This document shows, in pieces, positions 16,793-25,423 of a DNA stretch of 39,973 bases (the first letter of the stretch is position 1; the number at the start of each line of letters is the position of its first letter). The notes beneath the pieces are model-generated. The model did no database searches. It was not told the DNA's origin and was given only the letters and a program-made list of their open reading frames with translations. The stretch lies in contig CADBPJ010000029.1 in assembly GCA_902796445.1 (NCBI GenBank), forward strand, positions 1 to 39,973. The letters run 5' to 3'. A program made the translations under genes and the position numbers. Origin of the DNA: an uncultured Ruminococcus sp. Lineage in GTDB: Bacteria; Bacillota; Clostridia; UBA1381.

Positions 16793-17917
16793 TTACAGTC
16801 TACCCTTAAAATCACTATATCCAAATTTGCGAATATACTTTACCTCGCCACTCTCATCCATTCCGCAGATTGCAGGCAAAGCCATTCCGTTAAAGGTATT
16901 GTTTTTTACTGTCGTATATATAGCCATATCGCAAAATGTCAGCCTGTCGCCAATCTGCAACGGCTTTTCAAATGAATAGTCACCTATTATATCGCCTGCA
17001 AGACAGGTCAGGGACGATAATCTGTAGGTATACTCCTTTTCGTCTGCCTCATACCCGTCTTTTAAGGGCGGGCGATACGGCATCTCCAATACATCAGGCA
17101 TATGACATGCCGCAGATGTATCAAGCAGTGCCGTTTTTATTCCGTTATCGACTATTTCACATACGGTTGTTATGAGGTATCCTGCATTTAATGCCACAGC
17201 CTCGCCAGGCTCCAGATATACCTCGACATTGTACTTTTCTTTTATTCTGTTTATTTCCGACACAAGCAAATCAACGTCATAATCATCACGTGTAATATGG
17301 TGACCGCCGCCAAAATTCAGCCATTGCATATTGTATAAATATTCTCCGAATTTTTCCTCCACTGCTTTTAGTGTAGTAGCAAGGTCATCAGAATTCTGCT
17401 CGCAAAGTGTATGAAAATGCAGACCGCTTATCCCCTCTAACTCACGAGGCTCAAAATTCGCTTTCGTTATACCAAGCCTTGAGCCGTATGCACAAGGGTC
17501 ATATATGCCATGCTCCTGAGTTGAACATTCGGGATTTATACGCAAGCCAAAGTTTCCGCCGTGGCTTATTGCACGAGCACGGAACCTTTTCCACTGCGAG
17601 AACGAGTTAAACACAATATGGTCACAAATATCAAGGATTTCGTCAAACTCCTCGTCCTTATATGCAGGACTGAACACGTGGTTTTCACCCTTCATCTCCT
17701 CATGCGCAAGGCGCGCTTCATATAGTCCGCTTGCAGTAGCTCCGCTTATATAATTGCCGATAAGCGGATAAAAATGATAGTTAGAAAACGCCTTTTGTGC
17801 TAACAGGATATGTGCGCCTGTACGTTTTTCAACGTCTTGCAGTATCTTGAGATTTTTCTTTAGTCTACCCTCGTCAATTACGTAGCACGGAGTAGGTATA
17901 TTTTCAACACTGTACAT
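16793..17917 (-). CDS. nspC: Carboxynorspermidine/carboxyspermidine decarboxylase
   Basis: A PLP enzyme of alanine-racemase fold (type III) that decarboxylates carboxyspermidine or carboxynorspermidine to the polyamine. The 374-residue protein has the PLP lysine at residue 42 (LLAQKAF), GLRINPECSTQEHGIYDP, the HFHTLCEQNSDDL loop, NFGGGHHITR and the C-terminal half-site DTSAACHMPDVLEMPYRP, all typical of NspC. It overlaps nothing: one base separates it from the upstream dehydrogenase gene, so the two are translated from one message. It is the last step of the spermidine operon. Confidence 0.93.
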   Translation of the reverse strand: MYSVENIPTPCYVIDEGRLKKNLKILQDVEKRTGAHILLAQKAFSNYHFYPLIGNYISGATASGLYEARLAHEEMKGENHVFSPAYKDEEFDEILDICDHIVFNSFSQWKRFRARAISHGGNFGLRINPECSTQEHGIYDPCAYGSRLGITKANFEPRELEGISGLHFHTLCEQNSDDLATTLKAVEEKFGEYLYNMQWLNFGGGHHITRDDYDVDLLVSEINRIKEKYNVEVYLEPGEAVALNAGYLITTVCEIVDNGIKTALLDTSAACHMPDVLEMPYRPPLKDGYEADEKEYTYRLSSLTCLAGDIIGDYSFEKPLQIGDRLTFCDMAIYTTVKNNTFNGMALPAICGMDESGEVKYIRKFGYSDFKGRL

Positions 17918-17918
17918 A

Positions 17919-19121
17919 TCAATCTACCAAATCAGGGTTAAAGCTTTCTTTCCAAGGCAATCCCCACTTGTTAAGTGCATCCATAAACGGATCGGGGTCA
18001 AACTCCTCTATATTAAATACACCAGGTCCCTGCCATGTACCTGTCATAAGCATCATTGCACCAATCATTGCAGGCACGCCTGTTGTGTATGACACTGCCT
18101 GAGAGCCAACCTCACGATAGCACTCCTGATGGTCACAGGTATTGTATAAATAATACGTTTTTTCCTTGCCGTCCTTTTTGCCTATAAATATACAACCTAT
18201 ATTTGTCTTTCCTACAGTTCTCGGGCCCAATGATGCAGGATCGGGCAATACTGCCTTTAAAAACTGTAACGGGATTATCTCCTTGCCCTCATACATTATA
18301 GGCTCGATTGATGTCATACCCACATTTTCAAGGCACTTTAAATGTCTTAGATAGCTCTCGCCAAAGGTCATAAAGAAACGTATCCTCTTAATACCGGGGA
18401 TATTTATGGCAAGTGACTCGATTTCCTCGTGGTGCAAAAGGTACATATCCTTTTCACCGATTTCAGGGAAATCATACACTCTCTTTATCTCCATAGGCTC
18501 TGTTTCTACCCAATGTCCATCCTCCCAATAACTGCCCTTAGCACTTACCTCTCGGATATTTATTTCAGGGTTAAAATTCGTAGCAAACGGATAGCCATGA
18601 TCGCCTGCATTGCAATCAAGAATGTCAATGTAGTTTATCTCATCAAACTCGTGCTTTAATGCATATGCTGCAAACACACTTGTAACACCAGGGTCAAAGC
18701 CGCTGCCCAAAAGCGCAGTAATTCCCGCCTCCTTGAAACGGTCACGGTACTCCCACTGCCACTTGTATTCAAACTTTGCAGTGTCCTCAGGCTCATAGTT
18801 TGCAGTATCGACATAATGTGTCTTTGTTGCAAGGCAAGCGTCCATTATAGTCAAATCCTGATATGTCAGGGCAAGATTAAGCACTACATCAGGCTTAAAG
18901 CTGTTTATAAGCTCGATTAGCTCGTCTACATTATCAGCATCTACTTGCGCTGTATGAATAATTGTTTTTGATTTACCGCTAAGCTTGTCCTTTAGTGCAT
19001 CGCACTTTGACTTTGTGCGGCTTGCTATCATTATTTCCTCAAATACAGCATCGTTCTGTACACACTTATGAATAGCTACGGATGCAACGCCGCCGCAACC
19101 GATTATTAAACATTTTCCCAT
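17919..19121 (-). CDS. Carboxynorspermidine/carboxyspermidine dehydrogenase (saccharopine dehydrogenase family)
   Basis: This enzyme condenses aspartate semialdehyde with a diamine and reduces the imine with NADPH, giving carboxy(nor)spermidine for NspC. The 400-residue protein begins MGKCLIIGCGGVASVAIHKC with the dinucleotide-binding GCGGVA at residues 8-13. It has the family motifs DTANYEPED and LGSGFDPGVTSVFAAYA. The frame continues ten codons upstream, but AAAGGA precedes the ATG at 19121. It starts four bases after the speB stop. Confidence 0.93.
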   Translation of the reverse strand: MGKCLIIGCGGVASVAIHKCVQNDAVFEEIMIASRTKSKCDALKDKLSGKSKTIIHTAQVDADNVDELIELINSFKPDVVLNLALTYQDLTIMDACLATKTHYVDTANYEPEDTAKFEYKWQWEYRDRFKEAGITALLGSGFDPGVTSVFAAYALKHEFDEINYIDILDCNAGDHGYPFATNFNPEINIREVSAKGSYWEDGHWVETEPMEIKRVYDFPEIGEKDMYLLHHEEIESLAINIPGIKRIRFFMTFGESYLRHLKCLENVGMTSIEPIMYEGKEIIPLQFLKAVLPDPASLGPRTVGKTNIGCIFIGKKDGKEKTYYLYNTCDHQECYREVGSQAVSYTTGVPAMIGAMMLMTGTWQGPGVFNIEEFDPDPFMDALNKWGLPWKESFNPDLVD

Positions 19122-19125
19122 CTCT

Positions 19126-19983
19126 TTAGTTCCTTTCTTTATATACAGCAATCAATAATTCTCTCATTACCTTTAACGCAACCGCAGTTGATGCACCGCT
19201 TGCATCAAGCATAGGCGAAAGCTCGTTTATATCCATTCCCACAATGTTAAGCTTTGATACCTTAAGTATTGCATCAAGTAACTCCGTAAAGCTTACACCT
19301 CCGGCTTCCGGTGTACCTGTGCCCGGGAATACCGAGGGATCAAGCACGTCAAGGTCAATCGTGAAATACACAGGCTTTCCCTTGAGGCTTTCTATTACGT
19401 CATCGAGTCCGTCAAAATTAAATTTTTGGGTTTTTACGTGGTTCTTACCCCATTCAAATTCAGCACGTTCCCCACTGCGTATTCCGAACTGATATATTTT
19501 ATCATCTCCCACCATATCCCAGACACGGTGTATAACCGATGCATGGGAAAGCGTTGCACCAAGATACTCATCACGCAAATCTGCATGAGCATCAAAGTGT
19601 ATGACATGTAAATCAGGGTATTTTTCATATACTGCACGTACAGCTCCCAACGTCACAAGGTGCTCACCGCCTATCATAAGCGGAAGCTTGTCACTATCAA
19701 GGATTTTCCGTGTATGATTTTCTATATCGCCCAACGCCTTTTGTGTATCGCCAAAACACAGCTCAAGATCTCCCGAGTCGAATATCTCAATATCCTCCAA
19801 GTCCAAATCCTGATACGGACTATATGTTTCAAGTCCGTAGGACTCGGCACGCATATATCGTGATGCAAACCGCGTTCCGGGTCTATACGACGTCGTAGAA
19901 TCAAATGGTGCACCGAAAATCACTATTTTGCTGTCACAAAATTCACTGTCACAGCCTAAAAAAGTTTCTATATTCTTTTGCAT
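19126..19983 (-). CDS. speB: Agmatinase (agmatine ureohydrolase)
   Basis: SpeB hydrolyses agmatine to putrescine and urea. The 285-residue protein has the ureohydrolase dimanganese ligands: His108 in GGEHLVT, Asp131-x-His133-x-Asp135 in HFDAHADLRDEY, and the later DLDVLDPS pair; DSTTSYRPGTRF is also typical. The frame is open upstream for 20 codons, but GTGGGGGAT precedes the ATG at 19983. First gene of a three-gene operon that takes agmatine to spermidine; the arginine decarboxylase needed to make agmatine is not in this window. Confidence 0.93.
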   Translation of the reverse strand: MQKNIETFLGCDSEFCDSKIVIFGAPFDSTTSYRPGTRFASRYMRAESYGLETYSPYQDLDLEDIEIFDSGDLELCFGDTQKALGDIENHTRKILDSDKLPLMIGGEHLVTLGAVRAVYEKYPDLHVIHFDAHADLRDEYLGATLSHASVIHRVWDMVGDDKIYQFGIRSGERAEFEWGKNHVKTQKFNFDGLDDVIESLKGKPVYFTIDLDVLDPSVFPGTGTPEAGGVSFTELLDAILKVSKLNIVGMDINELSPMLDASGASTAVALKVMRELLIAVYKERN

Positions 19984-20014
19984 GGCAATCCCCCACTCAC
20001 AAAATCTTGGTATA

Positions 20015-20043
20015 AGTATATCATACCTTAAAAAAAAATGCAA
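20015..20043 (-). promoter_or_regulatory. Promoter of the speB-dehydrogenase-nspC operon
   Basis: Minus-strand TTGCAT (20038-20043), 17-bp spacer containing an A/T tract, TATACT (20015-20020); speB starts about 32 bases downstream. Confidence 0.7.
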
Positions 20044-20046
20044 GCA

Positions 20047-20286
20047 TCAATAAAGCTTTATATAGTCATTTTTAGGAGAATGTAAAAACTTTGTCTTGTA
20101 TGCCCTATAAAAGGACGTGTAATCATTAAATCCGCACTTTGTGTATACTGATGTAGGTTTTTCGCCACGAACAAGAAGCTCCTTTGCCAAAATCAGCCGT
20201 TTAGCAGTTATGTATTCCCATACCGTAGAGCCTGTCACATTTCTGAATTTGCGGTTAAGTTGAGATTTACTTATAAACGGAGCAGG
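20047..20286 (-). pseudogene. C-terminal fragment of an AraC-family regulator
   Basis: About 76 codons encode the AraC DNA-binding domain: [33 protein letters not shown], then KCGFNDYTSFYRAYKTKF. Upstream of about 20286 the frame stays open but reads the antisense of an SDR gene and has no AraC-like sequence, so the sensor domain and first part are lost. There is no start or ribosome site. It is half of a broken divergent pair (see the adjacent SDR fragment). Confidence 0.8.
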
Positions 20287-20845
20287 CGGAAACAACCCAA
20301 GAGCAACAACAGACAAGGAGTATTTTGAAACAGGAGATATAGATGCTGATACAAAGAGCTTTTTTGATTTAGATGCAGACGGTGTGGCATTTGTATTCAA
20401 TCTTAACTTTCTCGGCGTTCTTATTCCGACACAGATTTTCGCAAAGCAGATGATAGGAAAAGAAGGTTGTAATATTTTAAATATTTCAAGTATGAATGCA
20501 TTTACACCGCTTACAAAAATCCCTGCATATTCAGGCGCAAAGGCGGCTGTATCAAATTTCACACAATGGCTTGCCGTGCATTTTTCTAAAGTTGGTATTC
20601 GTGTAAACGCCATTGCACCCGGATTTTTCTCGACAAAGCAAAATGCGAGCCTTTTGTTTAACGCAGACGGAACTCCCACTCCAAGAACAGGAAAAATATT
20701 AGCGGCAACGCCAATGGGCAGATTTGGCGAGGCAAATGAACTTGAAGGCAGTATACTGTTTTCGCTCAACAACGATGCCGCAGGCTTTATAACAGGTGTT
20801 GTATTGCCCGTTGACGGCGGTTTCTCGGCATATTCGGGAGTATAA
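20264..20845 (+). pseudogene. C-terminal fragment of an SDR sugar-acid oxidoreductase
   Basis: In-frame protein sequence begins abruptly at [16 protein letters not shown] (20264) and runs through [25 protein letters not shown] (catalytic Ser), YSGAKAA (Tyr-x3-Lys) and the C-terminal [12 protein letters not shown]. This looks like the D-mannonate/fructuronate reductase-like SDR group. The N-terminal TGxxxGIG cofactor motif and about 80-90 residues are missing, and a stop (TGA at 20261) lies just upstream. A GTG at 20384 could start a shorter peptide, but it would lack the cofactor site, so the gene is dead. Confidence 0.8.
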
Positions 20846-20905: not shown

Positions 20906-21751
20906 TTATATGCTCAAATATTTCGACGGCGGTATTCCCATGATTTTTTTGAACGTCTTTGAATAGTGATAAATATCACAAAATCCGCACAGCTGCGCAA
21001 TTTCGGAAATTGTATGCTTTTTTTCTGCCAAAAGGTCTATAGAATGATAGACACGTGTCCGCATCAGGTATCGGTGGAGCGGCAGGCCTGTTGAGATTTT
21101 TATAAGCTTGCTAATATAATTCGGATGCAAATTCAGAGCTTTTCCGATTATTTTATTTGAAAGCTGTTTATCTATATTTTCGTTTATATATCCTATGACA
21201 ATGTTTGCAATTTCTTTATTTCCATTGTACTTCTGCCCCTGCTGTTCTCTCAAACATTCCAATAATAGTTCTGATAAAATATTCGCCGTAATATCTTCAA
21301 AGTACAGCAGCTTTTGTGAATATTCGCGTTCAATTCGGCTAAGTCTTGATGAAAATTTCTTCATTTCTCTTATATATGTAACCTCATTAAAAACAGGTAC
21401 TTTTAATTCTTCCAAATTTTCCAAAACATAATGCGAATCAAAAAAATCAAATTCAACAGGCGGTATTGGTTTTTTGAGTGTTACATTAGATTGAGTATAA
21501 TCAAAATTCAATGCTATATAAACTGCCTTACTTTGAGGCGTCAGGAGCTGATATTTATTCCCCGATGGTATAATCAGAACATCACCTTTATTTAAAATAT
21601 ACTGTTCTTCCTCTGTCCATATTTGGGCTGTGCCCTCATACATATAAAAAAATCTGTGATCATATGGAATTGTTGGTTTATAGTCCGCATTTCTATCTAT
21701 GGGAATATAATGGGCATACCTTATAAAAGGATGTATTTTTGATATATTCAT
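20906..21751 (-). CDS. AraC-family transcriptional regulator of the isomerase locus
   Basis: 281 residues: an N-terminal cupin sensor (PYDHRFFYMYEGTAQIW, then NKGDVLIIPSGNKYQLL), a middle helical linker (about 120-175), and the two helix-turn-helix units (LSNKIIGKALNLHPNYISKL and HTISEIAQLCGFCDIYHYSK) ending KIMGIPPSKYLS. AAGGGGG precedes the ATG. It is divergent from the isomerase operon and shares with it a palindromic promoter, so it most likely senses a sugar and controls that operon and itself. Confidence 0.93.
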   Translation of the reverse strand: MNISKIHPFIRYAHYIPIDRNADYKPTIPYDHRFFYMYEGTAQIWTEEEQYILNKGDVLIIPSGNKYQLLTPQSKAVYIALNFDYTQSNVTLKKPIPPVEFDFFDSHYVLENLEELKVPVFNEVTYIREMKKFSSRLSRIEREYSQKLLYFEDITANILSELLLECLREQQGQKYNGNKEIANIVIGYINENIDKQLSNKIIGKALNLHPNYISKLIKISTGLPLHRYLMRTRVYHSIDLLAEKKHTISEIAQLCGFCDIYHYSKTFKKIMGIPPSKYLSI

Positions 21752-21802
21752 TCCAAAGCCCCCTTAGATTTATTTTATACAAATTTTAGTTTATATTATA
21801 CA

Positions 21803-21834
21803 TTGATTATATCACAAAACAACGATATAATCAA
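21803..21834. promoter_or_regulatory. Palindromic bidirectional promoter/operator
   Basis: TTGATTATATC (21803-21813) and GATATAATCAA (21824-21834) are perfect inverted copies around a 10-base centre. Each strand therefore reads TTGATT - 17 bp - TATAAT: plus strand 21803-21808 and 21826-21831, and the mirror image on the minus strand. One serves the isomerase operon, the other the AraC gene. Confidence 0.8.
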
Positions 21835-21863
21835 GATAATTTATAAAAAGGAGGTTGTTTGAT

Positions 21864-23309
21864 ATGATACAAAGAAAATCAAAAAGAACAGCAAGAATAG
21901 GTGTTTTTGCAGTAATTCACGAAATTTATTTTGAACAGTTTGATGGACTGCGGGACAGTCTTTACGGTTATCACAATGACTTAATTGACATAATCAAAAC
22001 AAATGATGTTGAGGTTGTCGATTTTGGATTTGTAGGCAACAACCAGAGGGCTTACGAGGTCGCAGAAGAAATCAAAAAACAAAATATAGACCTTTTAATG
22101 TGCAATATGATTACATATGCAACATCATCTGTGTTTGCACCAATTCTTCTCGGCTGTGACATTCCTATGATTTTAGTTGCTCTTCAGCCGCTTTCAAAAC
22201 TTGATTATACAAAGGCCAATACCTTTATGCAGTTAGAAAATGATAATATATGTGCTGTCCCTGAATTTATGGGTGTGGCAAACAGACTCAGAAAGAAGAT
22301 ACATGATGTAATAATAGGCACACTTTATGATGATGAGGATGCAAGGGCAGAGCTTTCGAAATGGTGTAATATCGCAATGGTTATCCATAGCTTAAAGGGT
22401 GCGAGAATGGGACTTATGGGCCATACAATGGAGGCAATGTATGATATGCACGCAGATCCGACTGCGATTTCTTCAGCGTTCGGTATTCACGTACCTCTTT
22501 TGGAAATAGATGATGTCGTAGAAGTGTATAACGAAATAACAGAGGAAGAAATACAGGCAAAAATCAACGTCATTGATGAAGAGTTTGATATGCCCGATCC
22601 TAAGAGTGACCCAATAACAACCAAGCTTACGGATGCGGATAAGCTTCAGGCGGCAAAATCAGCAGTTGCACTCGATCGACTTGTTGAAAAATATAACCTG
22701 ACAGGACTTGCTTACTATTATGAGGGTCTTGATAATACCATTCAGAGAACGATTTCTTCGACTTTTATAGTCGGCAACTCTATTCTTAACGCACAAGGAA
22801 TTCCTATGTGCGGTGAGTTTGATATAAAAACCTGTATAGCAATGCTTATTATGGACAGACTCAACATCGGAGGCAGTTTTGCGGAGTTTCACCCATTCGA
22901 TTTTGACGAGGACTTTATTCTTGTAGGTCACGACGGTCCACATCATCTTGCGATTGCAGACGGAAAGCCGATATTGAGAAGTCTTAAGAAATATCACGGC
23001 AAACCAGGAAGCGGTGCAGGCGTAGAGTTTAAAATAAAAGAAGGGCCTATCACGATGCTCGGTATAACTCAAAACTATGACGGTAAGTTCAAATTCGTTA
23101 TTGGAGAAGGATTTTCAAAGGCAGGTCCTATACCTCCGACAGGAAACACAAATACTCGAGGATTTTTTGAGCCGACCACAAAGGAATTTATAAAGAAATG
23201 GGTAATGGAAGGCCCGACACATCACTATGCATTGGGTATTGGTCACCATGCAGATGAACTTGCAAAGATTGCCGATATTTTAGGAATAGAAAGGGTGATT
23301 GTAAAATGA
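21864..23309 (+). CDS. L-fucose/L-arabinose isomerase family protein
   Basis: 481 residues. The fold and motifs follow the fucose/arabinose isomerase family: an N-terminal Rossmann-like region (RIGVFAVIHEIYFEQF; a VALQPLSKL strand), then manganese-site acids in CGEFDIKT and AEFHPFDF, and histidines in GHDGPHHL and HHYALGIGHH. The exact sugar is unknown. The ATG at 21864 has AAAGGAGG eight bases upstream; a TTG three codons earlier overlaps that site and is rejected. The stop overlaps the start of the next gene by four bases. Confidence 0.85.
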   Translation: MIQRKSKRTARIGVFAVIHEIYFEQFDGLRDSLYGYHNDLIDIIKTNDVEVVDFGFVGNNQRAYEVAEEIKKQNIDLLMCNMITYATSSVFAPILLGCDIPMILVALQPLSKLDYTKANTFMQLENDNICAVPEFMGVANRLRKKIHDVIIGTLYDDEDARAELSKWCNIAMVIHSLKGARMGLMGHTMEAMYDMHADPTAISSAFGIHVPLLEIDDVVEVYNEITEEEIQAKINVIDEEFDMPDPKSDPITTKLTDADKLQAAKSAVALDRLVEKYNLTGLAYYYEGLDNTIQRTISSTFIVGNSILNAQGIPMCGEFDIKTCIAMLIMDRLNIGGSFAEFHPFDFDEDFILVGHDGPHHLAIADGKPILRSLKKYHGKPGSGAGVEFKIKEGPITMLGITQNYDGKFKFVIGEGFSKAGPIPPTGNTNTRGFFEPTTKEFIKKWVMEGPTHHYALGIGHHADELAKIADILGIERVIVK

Positions 23310-25423
23310 AAAACATAACACTTGAAATGAGTCTTAAGCCGTTTAAAGAGACAAATAGCGAATACATAGAAAACGTGTGCCGTATATTTTTCACACAGTG
23401 GGCACCACTCTTGAAGCAAGCAGATACCGTATCGGTTATGCTCTGGTCAGCAGACGGCAGCGAAATTCTTGACTACACAGGCGACAAAGAGCAAAGCTTT
23501 GAATGGGCATATAGAATTGGCGATGCAAACAAGCCTGAGGCTCCCGATGCAAATAATTGGCGTACAAATTCAAAAAAGATTTACCTACATTCAGCAAATT
23601 ACTTGTATATAGAAAATCCACCGACTATGACATATGCAATTCTTGCTGATATTATAAAGACAATTAAAGCGGTCGGAAGAGAGCTTACAGGCGGCAAAAA
23701 AATCACCGTAGGCGCAACATTTGATCCCGGTCCTGAATTTGCAAAATCATCATTCAAGTATCAGCGTCATAACGAGATATGCCTTGGTAATGATATGGGA
23801 AAAGCCACTATGGTTTGTTGTTATGGTGTTTTAAACGGTGATACGAACAAATATGCCGCATATCCTCACGGTATACCCGACGGTACAAAATTCGGAACGT
23901 TTTTAGGTAAGCAGTCAGAAATTTTTCTTTCCGATATGGGCTATGACTATATATGGCTTTCAAACGGACTTGGATTTGGCAGAGAGACGTGGTCAGCGCT
24001 TGGCGCACTCTATGACGGAGAAAACTTTAACGCATCGACTCTTGATGAAATCAAAGATTGCGTAACCGAGTTCTGGGATTTATTTACAGCTGAATGTACC
24101 TTCCCTATCCAGGTTCGTGGTACAAATATGTCTATGGGAATAGACCTCTCAACAGATGGTGTTCCACTTAAAACAATTTATGATTCTGTTGACGGTATTC
24201 TGCCTCCGCCGAACTCTCCGTGGGCCGCTCTTAACGGCAATTTCGGCTTGGAGCTTATGGGATATATGTCAAGAATATCCTATATTCCCGACAAGGCTTT
24301 TCTTTTAAGATATTATATTCATGATCCGTGGTGGATGAACTCTCCGTGGTATGACAGATACAACAGCCAGCCACACGACATTTATCTGCCGTTTGCAATT
24401 TCGAGAATAGATGAGGACGGCAAGGTTAATACGCCTACTAATCTGAATATACTAACAATAGACAACGCTTTAGGCGATATGCCCGACAGCTGTGTGTATG
24501 AACCCCTACCCCACCTGATGAAGGCAATAAAGGAGATGCCCGATGAACTATCACCTATCGTATGGGTATACCCGTTTGACGAATATTCTGCTGCTGATAA
24601 CGAATATATGTTAAAATCAATGAATGATGAGGATTGGTATATTGCAAATTCAATAACCGCGGGATGCCCCATATCCTCCGTAACAACAACTGATATATTC
24701 AAAAAGCAGGACAAGAGTATCTACAAATCCTCTGTTATAGTCACTCCTGTTCCGTATACGGATAAATTCCGTGACGAGATTGAAAAGTTCATTGATAATG
24801 GCGGAAGAGTAATATTCTACGGCGACAAAAACAGATGCAGTGATATTTGTAACTGCCAATATGCAGATGATGAGGTTTCTATTCTTGATGCTCTCAAAAA
24901 ATATGGTGTCTCCATAGTATATGAAAAGCACAGTAATGAAAAATCACCCGTCATAATGTGTCACAGATACAATAACGCATTTATATATTCGGTATTCTCA
25001 CCGTCAACAACGGTTAAAACTCTTATGAAATTTCCGTATGGTGCTCCAATTCTTGACGGATACGACACTATCCTTGAAAACGGATACGCATCGTATCATT
25101 TCCCAAAGGCCGAGCACAGGGAGTGTAGATTTTTCGTTGAACAAAATGACGGCGTTGTAAGCTGTTACGAAATACCGCCTATAAGTTGTGAATATAGACG
25201 AAGAATAGAGATAAACGGACTAAAAAATGCCACAGTCAGATTTTTAGCAGAGCAATATTGCAAGGATAATATACACGCTGTACTAAATCCCTACCCATTC
25301 AGTGACGAATACACTTACGCAGACGAATTTGAAAGCCAATACGTTGAAATTGACGGAATTGCGTTTTTCGAGGCAAGAAATATGACAGGAAAGCTTGTTG
25401 TTTCCATGCCGTTTAAAAATTGA
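23306..25423 (+). CDS. Large protein of unknown function, coupled to the isomerase gene
   Basis: 705 residues, no signal peptide. I do not recognise a named family. The first ~450 residues are rich in Trp, Asp and Glu in a pattern resembling a carbohydrate-active TIM-barrel (EMSLKPFKETN, GATFDPGPEFAKSSFKYQR, DYIWLSNGLGFGRETWS). A later segment (about 480-590: VIVTPVPYTDKFRDEIEKFI, DNGGRVIFYGDKN) resembles the flavodoxin-like domain that follows the barrel in some beta-galactosidases, and the tail looks like a beta sandwich. It starts within the isomerase stop (ATGA), so the two are made together and probably act on the same sugar. Confidence 0.75.
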   Translation: MKNITLEMSLKPFKETNSEYIENVCRIFFTQWAPLLKQADTVSVMLWSADGSEILDYTGDKEQSFEWAYRIGDANKPEAPDANNWRTNSKKIYLHSANYLYIENPPTMTYAILADIIKTIKAVGRELTGGKKITVGATFDPGPEFAKSSFKYQRHNEICLGNDMGKATMVCCYGVLNGDTNKYAAYPHGIPDGTKFGTFLGKQSEIFLSDMGYDYIWLSNGLGFGRETWSALGALYDGENFNASTLDEIKDCVTEFWDLFTAECTFPIQVRGTNMSMGIDLSTDGVPLKTIYDSVDGILPPPNSPWAALNGNFGLELMGYMSRISYIPDKAFLLRYYIHDPWWMNSPWYDRYNSQPHDIYLPFAISRIDEDGKVNTPTNLNILTIDNALGDMPDSCVYEPLPHLMKAIKEMPDELSPIVWVYPFDEYSAADNEYMLKSMNDEDWYIANSITAGCPISSVTTTDIFKKQDKSIYKSSVIVTPVPYTDKFRDEIEKFIDNGGRVIFYGDKNRCSDICNCQYADDEVSILDALKKYGVSIVYEKHSNEKSPVIMCHRYNNAFIYSVFSPSTTVKTLMKFPYGAPILDGYDTILENGYASYHFPKAEHRECRFFVEQNDGVVSCYEIPPISCEYRRRIEINGLKNATVRFLAEQYCKDNIHAVLNPYPFSDEYTYADEFESQYVEIDGIAFFEARNMTGKLVVSMPFKN

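Follow-up and report, generated by a model that had tools for sequence, protein, structure and literature searches.

An AraC-family regulator gene and a divergent sugar isomerase operon of an uncultured Ruminococcus sp. are separated by a region containing a 32-bp dyad, in which two predicted sigma-A-type core promoters are superimposed. We consider it quite probable that this symmetric core can be read either way and that the AraC-family protein, on an adjacent repeat, steers the direction of reading as well as its own synthesis. Sequence comparison shows that the dyad exists, recurs and depends on divergent neighbors, and that a 21-bp direct repeat beside it is conserved. A preliminary description had already proposed superimposed promoters for the regulator gene and the isomerase operon, and the comparative evidence appears to support this proposal well.

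Geometry of the dyad and its predicted promoters

The window, i.e. the whole stretch of 39,973 nucleotides that was analyzed, contains the following features:

20906-21751, reverse strand: AraC-family regulator, 281 aa, with a cupin-like N-terminus and an AraC-type HTH; ATG at 21751, Shine-Dalgarno AAGGGGG at 21765-21759
21769-21781, forward strand: TTTATTTTATACA, the distal half of a direct repeat and probably an AraC-family half-site; -69 to -57 relative to the predicted isomerase start
21790-21802, forward strand: proximal half of the direct repeat, TTTATATTATACA; abuts the isomerase -35 and overlaps the regulator gene's predicted start; -48 to -36 of the predicted isomerase start
21803-21834, no strand: 32-bp dyad, two superimposed sigma-A-type core promoters (predicted); arms TTGATTATATC and GATATAATCAA with 10 bp between them
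21803-21831, forward strand: predicted isomerase promoter; -35 TTGATT at 21803-21808, 17 bp, -10 TATAAT at 21826-21831; predicted start A at 21838 (by spacing)
21806-21834, reverse strand: predicted regulator-gene promoter; -35 TTGATT at 21834-21829, 17 bp, extended -10 TGATATAAT ending at 21806; predicted start A at 21799 (by spacing)
21864-23309, forward strand: sugar isomerase, distant relative of L-arabinose isomerase, 481 aa; ATG at 21864, GGAGG at 21850-21854
23306-25423, forward strand: second operon gene, 705 aa; 4-base overlap with the isomerase stop

Direct reading of the sequence confirms the perfect palindrome with 11-bp arms that had been described before: TTGATTATATC occupies 21803-21813 and GATATAATCAA occupies 21824-21834, around ten bases. 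The claim that each strand reads TTGATT-17-TATAAT also held, as a promoter scan finds one promoter on the forward strand (21803-21831) and one on the reverse strand (21834-21806). Each arm consists of the -35 of one promoter overlapping the -10 of the opposite promoter (TTG + ATTATA), and the two -10 elements, 20 bp apart, are located towards the outside of the dyad, each within the opposite -35. TTGATT matches the -35 consensus at four of six positions. The hallmarks of a sigma-A extended -10 promoter (a TATAAT-like -10, a TTGnnn -35, a spacer of 16-18 bp and TGn) are found on both strands; in the window's own dyad TG precedes the -10 on the reverse strand only, the forward strand having CGATATAAT. 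Counting seven bases from the end of each -10 places the predicted starts at 21838 (forward) and 21799 (reverse), about 39 bp apart and with an A on the respective strand in both cases. Of the two starts given in the preliminary description, near 21838 and 21796, the former agrees with this count and the latter is three bases off. The intergenic region measures 112 bp from the AraC-family ATG (21751, reverse strand) to the isomerase ATG (21864, forward strand), and the edges of the dyad are 51 bp and 29 bp away from these two start codons, respectively. The predicted leaders comprise 26 nt for the isomerase and 48 nt for the regulator gene, each with a Shine-Dalgarno sequence. Since the two cores overlap completely, their geometry would allow only one polymerase at a time on the dyad.

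The palindrome is beyond chance. A perfect 11-bp inverted repeat is expected in about 0.5% of 112-nt sequences of the same composition, and a dyad carrying a promoter with at least ten of twelve matches on both strands in the same register was absent from all 50,000 simulated regions and from the rest of the window. These simulations bear on the notion that the promoter works in a single direction, the hexamers of the other direction being an AT-rich coincidence and the second gene using another promoter. TATAAT-like words are indeed common in AT-rich DNA, and a 3-kb region contains 12 promoter-like sites where 10.7 are expected. However, the both-strand dyad never arose in the simulations, both -10 elements are conserved in the orthologues described below, and the distances from the dyad are regular on both sides, with medians of 49-51 bp to the regulator and about 32 bp to the target. 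We therefore regard a one-directional promoter as very unlikely.

Recurrence of the dyad in Clostridia

The same genome contains one further copy of the dyad with a single mismatch, whereas the reversed-pattern control gave none. This copy is flanked by a different AraC-family gene and by one for a small membrane-type protein, at distances of 51-52 and 29 bp, which are close to those of the window's dyad. In a set of 61 genomes comprising the own genome and its relatives, a site with up to three mismatches was present in 37; the reversed control was found in one genome. The consensus that recurs in Clostridia is TTGATTATAnCA-N8-TGnTATAATCAA, which corresponds to an extended -10, a 17-bp spacer and TTGatt on both strands. 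The full consensus was not used as a query; its n and TG emerged from the matches.

The spacing of the arms was analyzed with fixed arms TTGATTATA and TATAATCAA and a free gap of 2-30, where gap 14 corresponds to 17-bp spacers. Within the order, i.e. among close relatives, 14 of 15 exact sites had gap 14 and none had 16- or 18-bp spacers, in a sample too small to reveal such spacers; the class-level search did reveal them. There, 391 genomes yielded 53 sites, 31 with gap 14, six with gap 13, one with gap 15 and at most three with each of the other lengths. When genomes of all phyla were considered, gap 14 accounted for 21 of 118 among the matches listed and any other length for at most seven. 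Contigs of the cultured Lutispora saccharofermentans and of a Monoglobus strain are among those with sites. Outside the class but within the same phylum, the exact site was found in only 2 of about 288 genomes. Sigma-A tolerates just such a distribution, a peak flanked by minor shoulders at 16 and 18 bp, although in close relatives the 17-bp peak is sharper than ordinary promoters need and may reflect another constraint on the symmetry. Among all divergent regions in 1.2 Mb of sequence, 20 was the only recurrent offset between the best forward and reverse promoters (seven regions); all seven are known sites on contigs picked for holding the dyad, and their number is thus no independent estimate of prevalence.

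The dyad is tied to divergent genes: 47 of 54 distinct gap-14 sites lie between them, compared to 17 of 103 sites with unrelated gaps, 52 of which fall within genes. At least 32 of the 47 divergent sites are flanked by a gene of the AraC or LysR family. The median distance from the dyad to the regulator start is 49 bp for AraC and 51 bp for LysR genes, and the target start follows at about 32 bp on the other side. Targets include the isomerase of the window, a lyase of the fumarase/aspartase type, an aminotransferase and a GFO/IDH/MocA oxidoreductase. In a third group that lacks a regulator, a TatD-type nuclease gene is divergent from a gene of the aldehyde-dehydrogenase family (ProA-like); these pairs (L108-L117 and L274) belong to one family of the class.

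At the LysR loci, the center of a palindrome ATAA-N8-TTAT lies about 31 bp away from the dyad and close to -67 relative to the target, and a conserved TATGTAT adjoins the -35. In LysR orthologues that were chosen by their protein, the dyad was present as well and had decayed in the most distant ones. The dyad itself could be ruled out as a LysR T-N11-A box, since it is even-centered and the LysR site lies outside of it. In Oenococcus oeni (L161, 7112-7143), a dyad of the same arms encloses CGAACATATGTTCG, which we take to resemble the LexA/DinR box of Gram-positive bacteria.

A dimeric global regulator of Clostridia that binds to divergent promoters could also leave such a pattern, and the very sharp spacing in close relatives, the near-invariant arms and the many unrelated target genes would suit it. 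However, every conserved position is a sigma-A determinant, spacer variants of 1 bp are tolerated, and decay is uneven between the two arms, as would suit a constitutive promoter paired with an activated one. Moreover, such a protein should also have sites in front of single genes, which hardly agrees with the 47 of 54 sites found between divergent genes. We consider the binding site of a global regulator unlikely.

Isomerase orthologues and the adjoining direct repeat

To avoid circularity, orthologues of the isomerase were picked by protein search. All 17 orthologues with a divergent upstream region possess the dyad, 16 of them with 17-bp spacers and one (L307) with 16-bp spacers, while it was found in none of the seven orthologues whose upstream neighbor is a gene or coding sequence on the same strand (L293, L301-L306). 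At these 17 dyad loci the divergent gene is an AraC gene in 14 cases, the contig ends in two (L131, L307) and the AraC gene is gone in one (L292). In 16 orthologues the central eight bases vary freely, as does the n of TGn, and TA...T of both -10 elements is invariant. The TTG of the -35 is retained in 16/16 on the regulator side and in 12/16 on the isomerase side, and the regulator direction mostly reads TGnTATAAT. Such unequal conservation of TTG would be expected if only the isomerase promoter leans on an activator.

Between the dyad and the AraC-family gene, a direct repeat (21769-21802) consists of two halves spaced 21 bp apart and is conserved in the isomerase orthologues. In 16 of them the self-identity at lag 21 amounts to 0.50, compared to a mean of 0.335 over lags, and an equally strong signal at any lag was obtained in 0 of 2000 shuffles. 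This 21-bp-spaced repeat is the probable AraC operator. It shows two traits of an AraC-type class II site, namely half-sites in direct repeat abutting the -35 and an AraC-family protein encoded alongside. Relative to the predicted isomerase start, it lies where class II AraC sites are situated. With respect to the predicted start of the regulator gene, the repeat covers -3 to +31. This predicted site, which like the recurrence of the dyad was absent from the preliminary description, would by itself give both autorepression and activation.

Alternatively, the dyad itself might be the operator of the adjoining AraC-family regulator, with inverted half-sites and only incidental promoter hexamers. 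AraC proteins bind as dimers, two 16-bp half-sites would fit into 32 bp, and many of the dyads adjoin AraC genes. An operator of this kind should be tied to a single regulator family, however, and the dyad also occurs at LysR genes and at TatD/ProA pairs without any regulator. The AraC loci have their own conserved 21-bp direct repeat and the LysR loci their own palindrome, separate from the dyad in both cases. In addition, the variable positions of the dyad coincide with the free n of TGnTATAAT, and dyads shorter by 1 bp exist at orthologous or AraC loci (L118/L307, L284, L104). We thus judge an AraC operator highly improbable. The main argument for a promoter rather than an operator is that unrelated regulators with unlike sites share one core.

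The locus without the divergent AraC gene, L292 (G416:C87), has kept the dyad and the 21-bp repeat upstream of the isomerase, with no AraC gene upstream. On another contig of the same genome, a near-identical dyad adjoins an AraC gene (L205/L275).

Proposed mechanism and known systems

From the arrangement described above we infer two-way transcription, binding of the AraC-family protein to the repeat, activation, autorepression and competition. A single polymerase would occupy the symmetric core, directed towards the regulator gene or towards the isomerase operon. By default it would sit in the regulator direction, given that the orthologues keep TTG in all 16 cases and mostly TGnTATAAT there. 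The AraC-family protein would bind to the asymmetric direct repeat beside the dyad and contact the isomerase-facing polymerase (class II activation), and it would at the same time cover the start of its own gene and so limit its own synthesis. In this manner the regulator could steer the reading direction of the shared core, and direct competition could add to this effect. The coupling of the two messages by competition that the preliminary description proposed, however, appears plausible only in the induced state.

In the bidirectional promoters reported by Warman, Grainger and colleagues, a single symmetric -10 serves both directions and the starts are separated by 7-25 bp, most commonly by 18 bp (PMC12825309; PMC10268837). 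All five bidirectional promoters tested in E. coli were too weak for competition at basal level, and competition was seen only under strong activation of one direction (PMC12825309). The dyad resembles these promoters in being symmetric, in the predicted engagement of polymerase in two directions, one at a time, and in its location, as they too often lie between divergent, functionally linked genes. Their activators favor one direction and can repress the other, as would be the case in our model. In contrast to them, the dyad has separate -10 elements 20 bp apart instead of a shared one, starts about 39 bp apart, as predicted from spacing, compared to 7-25 bp, a near-perfect symmetry and a conserved sequence and gene context. 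Its sequence would place it outside their definition, although the two kinds would function in a similar way.

LysR systems have long been known to have divergent promoters that lie close together or overlap. In the general LysR scheme, the primary site near -65 overlaps the regulator's own promoter, and the target is activated while the regulator represses itself (PMC4834489); gltC-gltAB of B. subtilis is such a LysR-type, divergent and autoregulated promoter (PMC6794564). The LysR relatives with the dyad fit this scheme (PMC4834489) with their divergent regulator and a site near -67 of the target, whereas the regulator of the window is of the AraC type.

At pBAD of E. coli, AraC binds to I1-I2, direct-repeat half-sites 21 bp apart with the proximal one by the -35, and activates in class II fashion. 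The direct repeat of the window has the same 21-bp spacing and also its proximal half by the -35. While in E. coli a DNA loop couples two distinct promoters, those of araC and araBAD, the two predicted promoters of the window are merged in one symmetric core. In the open-access literature we found no description of a perfect reciprocal dyad of both core promoters or of its recurrence.

Recurrence beside two unrelated kinds of regulators in gut Clostridia suggests a compact genetic switch. The AraC and LysR site types occupy the same slot of about 50 bp beside the dyad. We give about even chances to the broader idea that the dyad represents a distinct recurrent promoter class of Clostridia, in which AraC or LysR proteins placed in this slot would select the direction and give up self-synthesis in exchange for target expression. 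If so, one symmetric core would be reused throughout the class as a two-way switch with the direction chosen by the regulator, and mutually exclusive polymerase binding as a selected regulatory device would become directly testable. As a symmetric core provides nearly equal promoters by construction, the effect of a regulator on direction and noise could be measured cleanly. For uncultured gut Clostridia, the signature TTGATTATAnCA-N8-TGnTATAATCAA would also predict which regulators and targets form pairs and where the regulators have their sites.

Regarding the surrounding genes, Pfam and NCBIfam gave no match for the 705-aa protein (23306-25423). Beyond the AraC gene, at 20047-20845, a 5'-truncated short-chain dehydrogenase gene (D-mannonate oxidoreductase-like, in frame from about 20262) stands head to head with what is left of a second AraC-family gene, its C-terminal HTH part. 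It seems that another divergent AraC/target pair has lost both N-termini, together with the intergenic region, through a deletion or misassembly. Three consecutive reverse-strand genes that adjoin the AraC gene (16793-20043) have the look of a polyamine cluster; judged by eye, they presumably encode a carboxynorspermidine decarboxylase, a saccharopine-dehydrogenase-like protein and an agmatinase-like protein.
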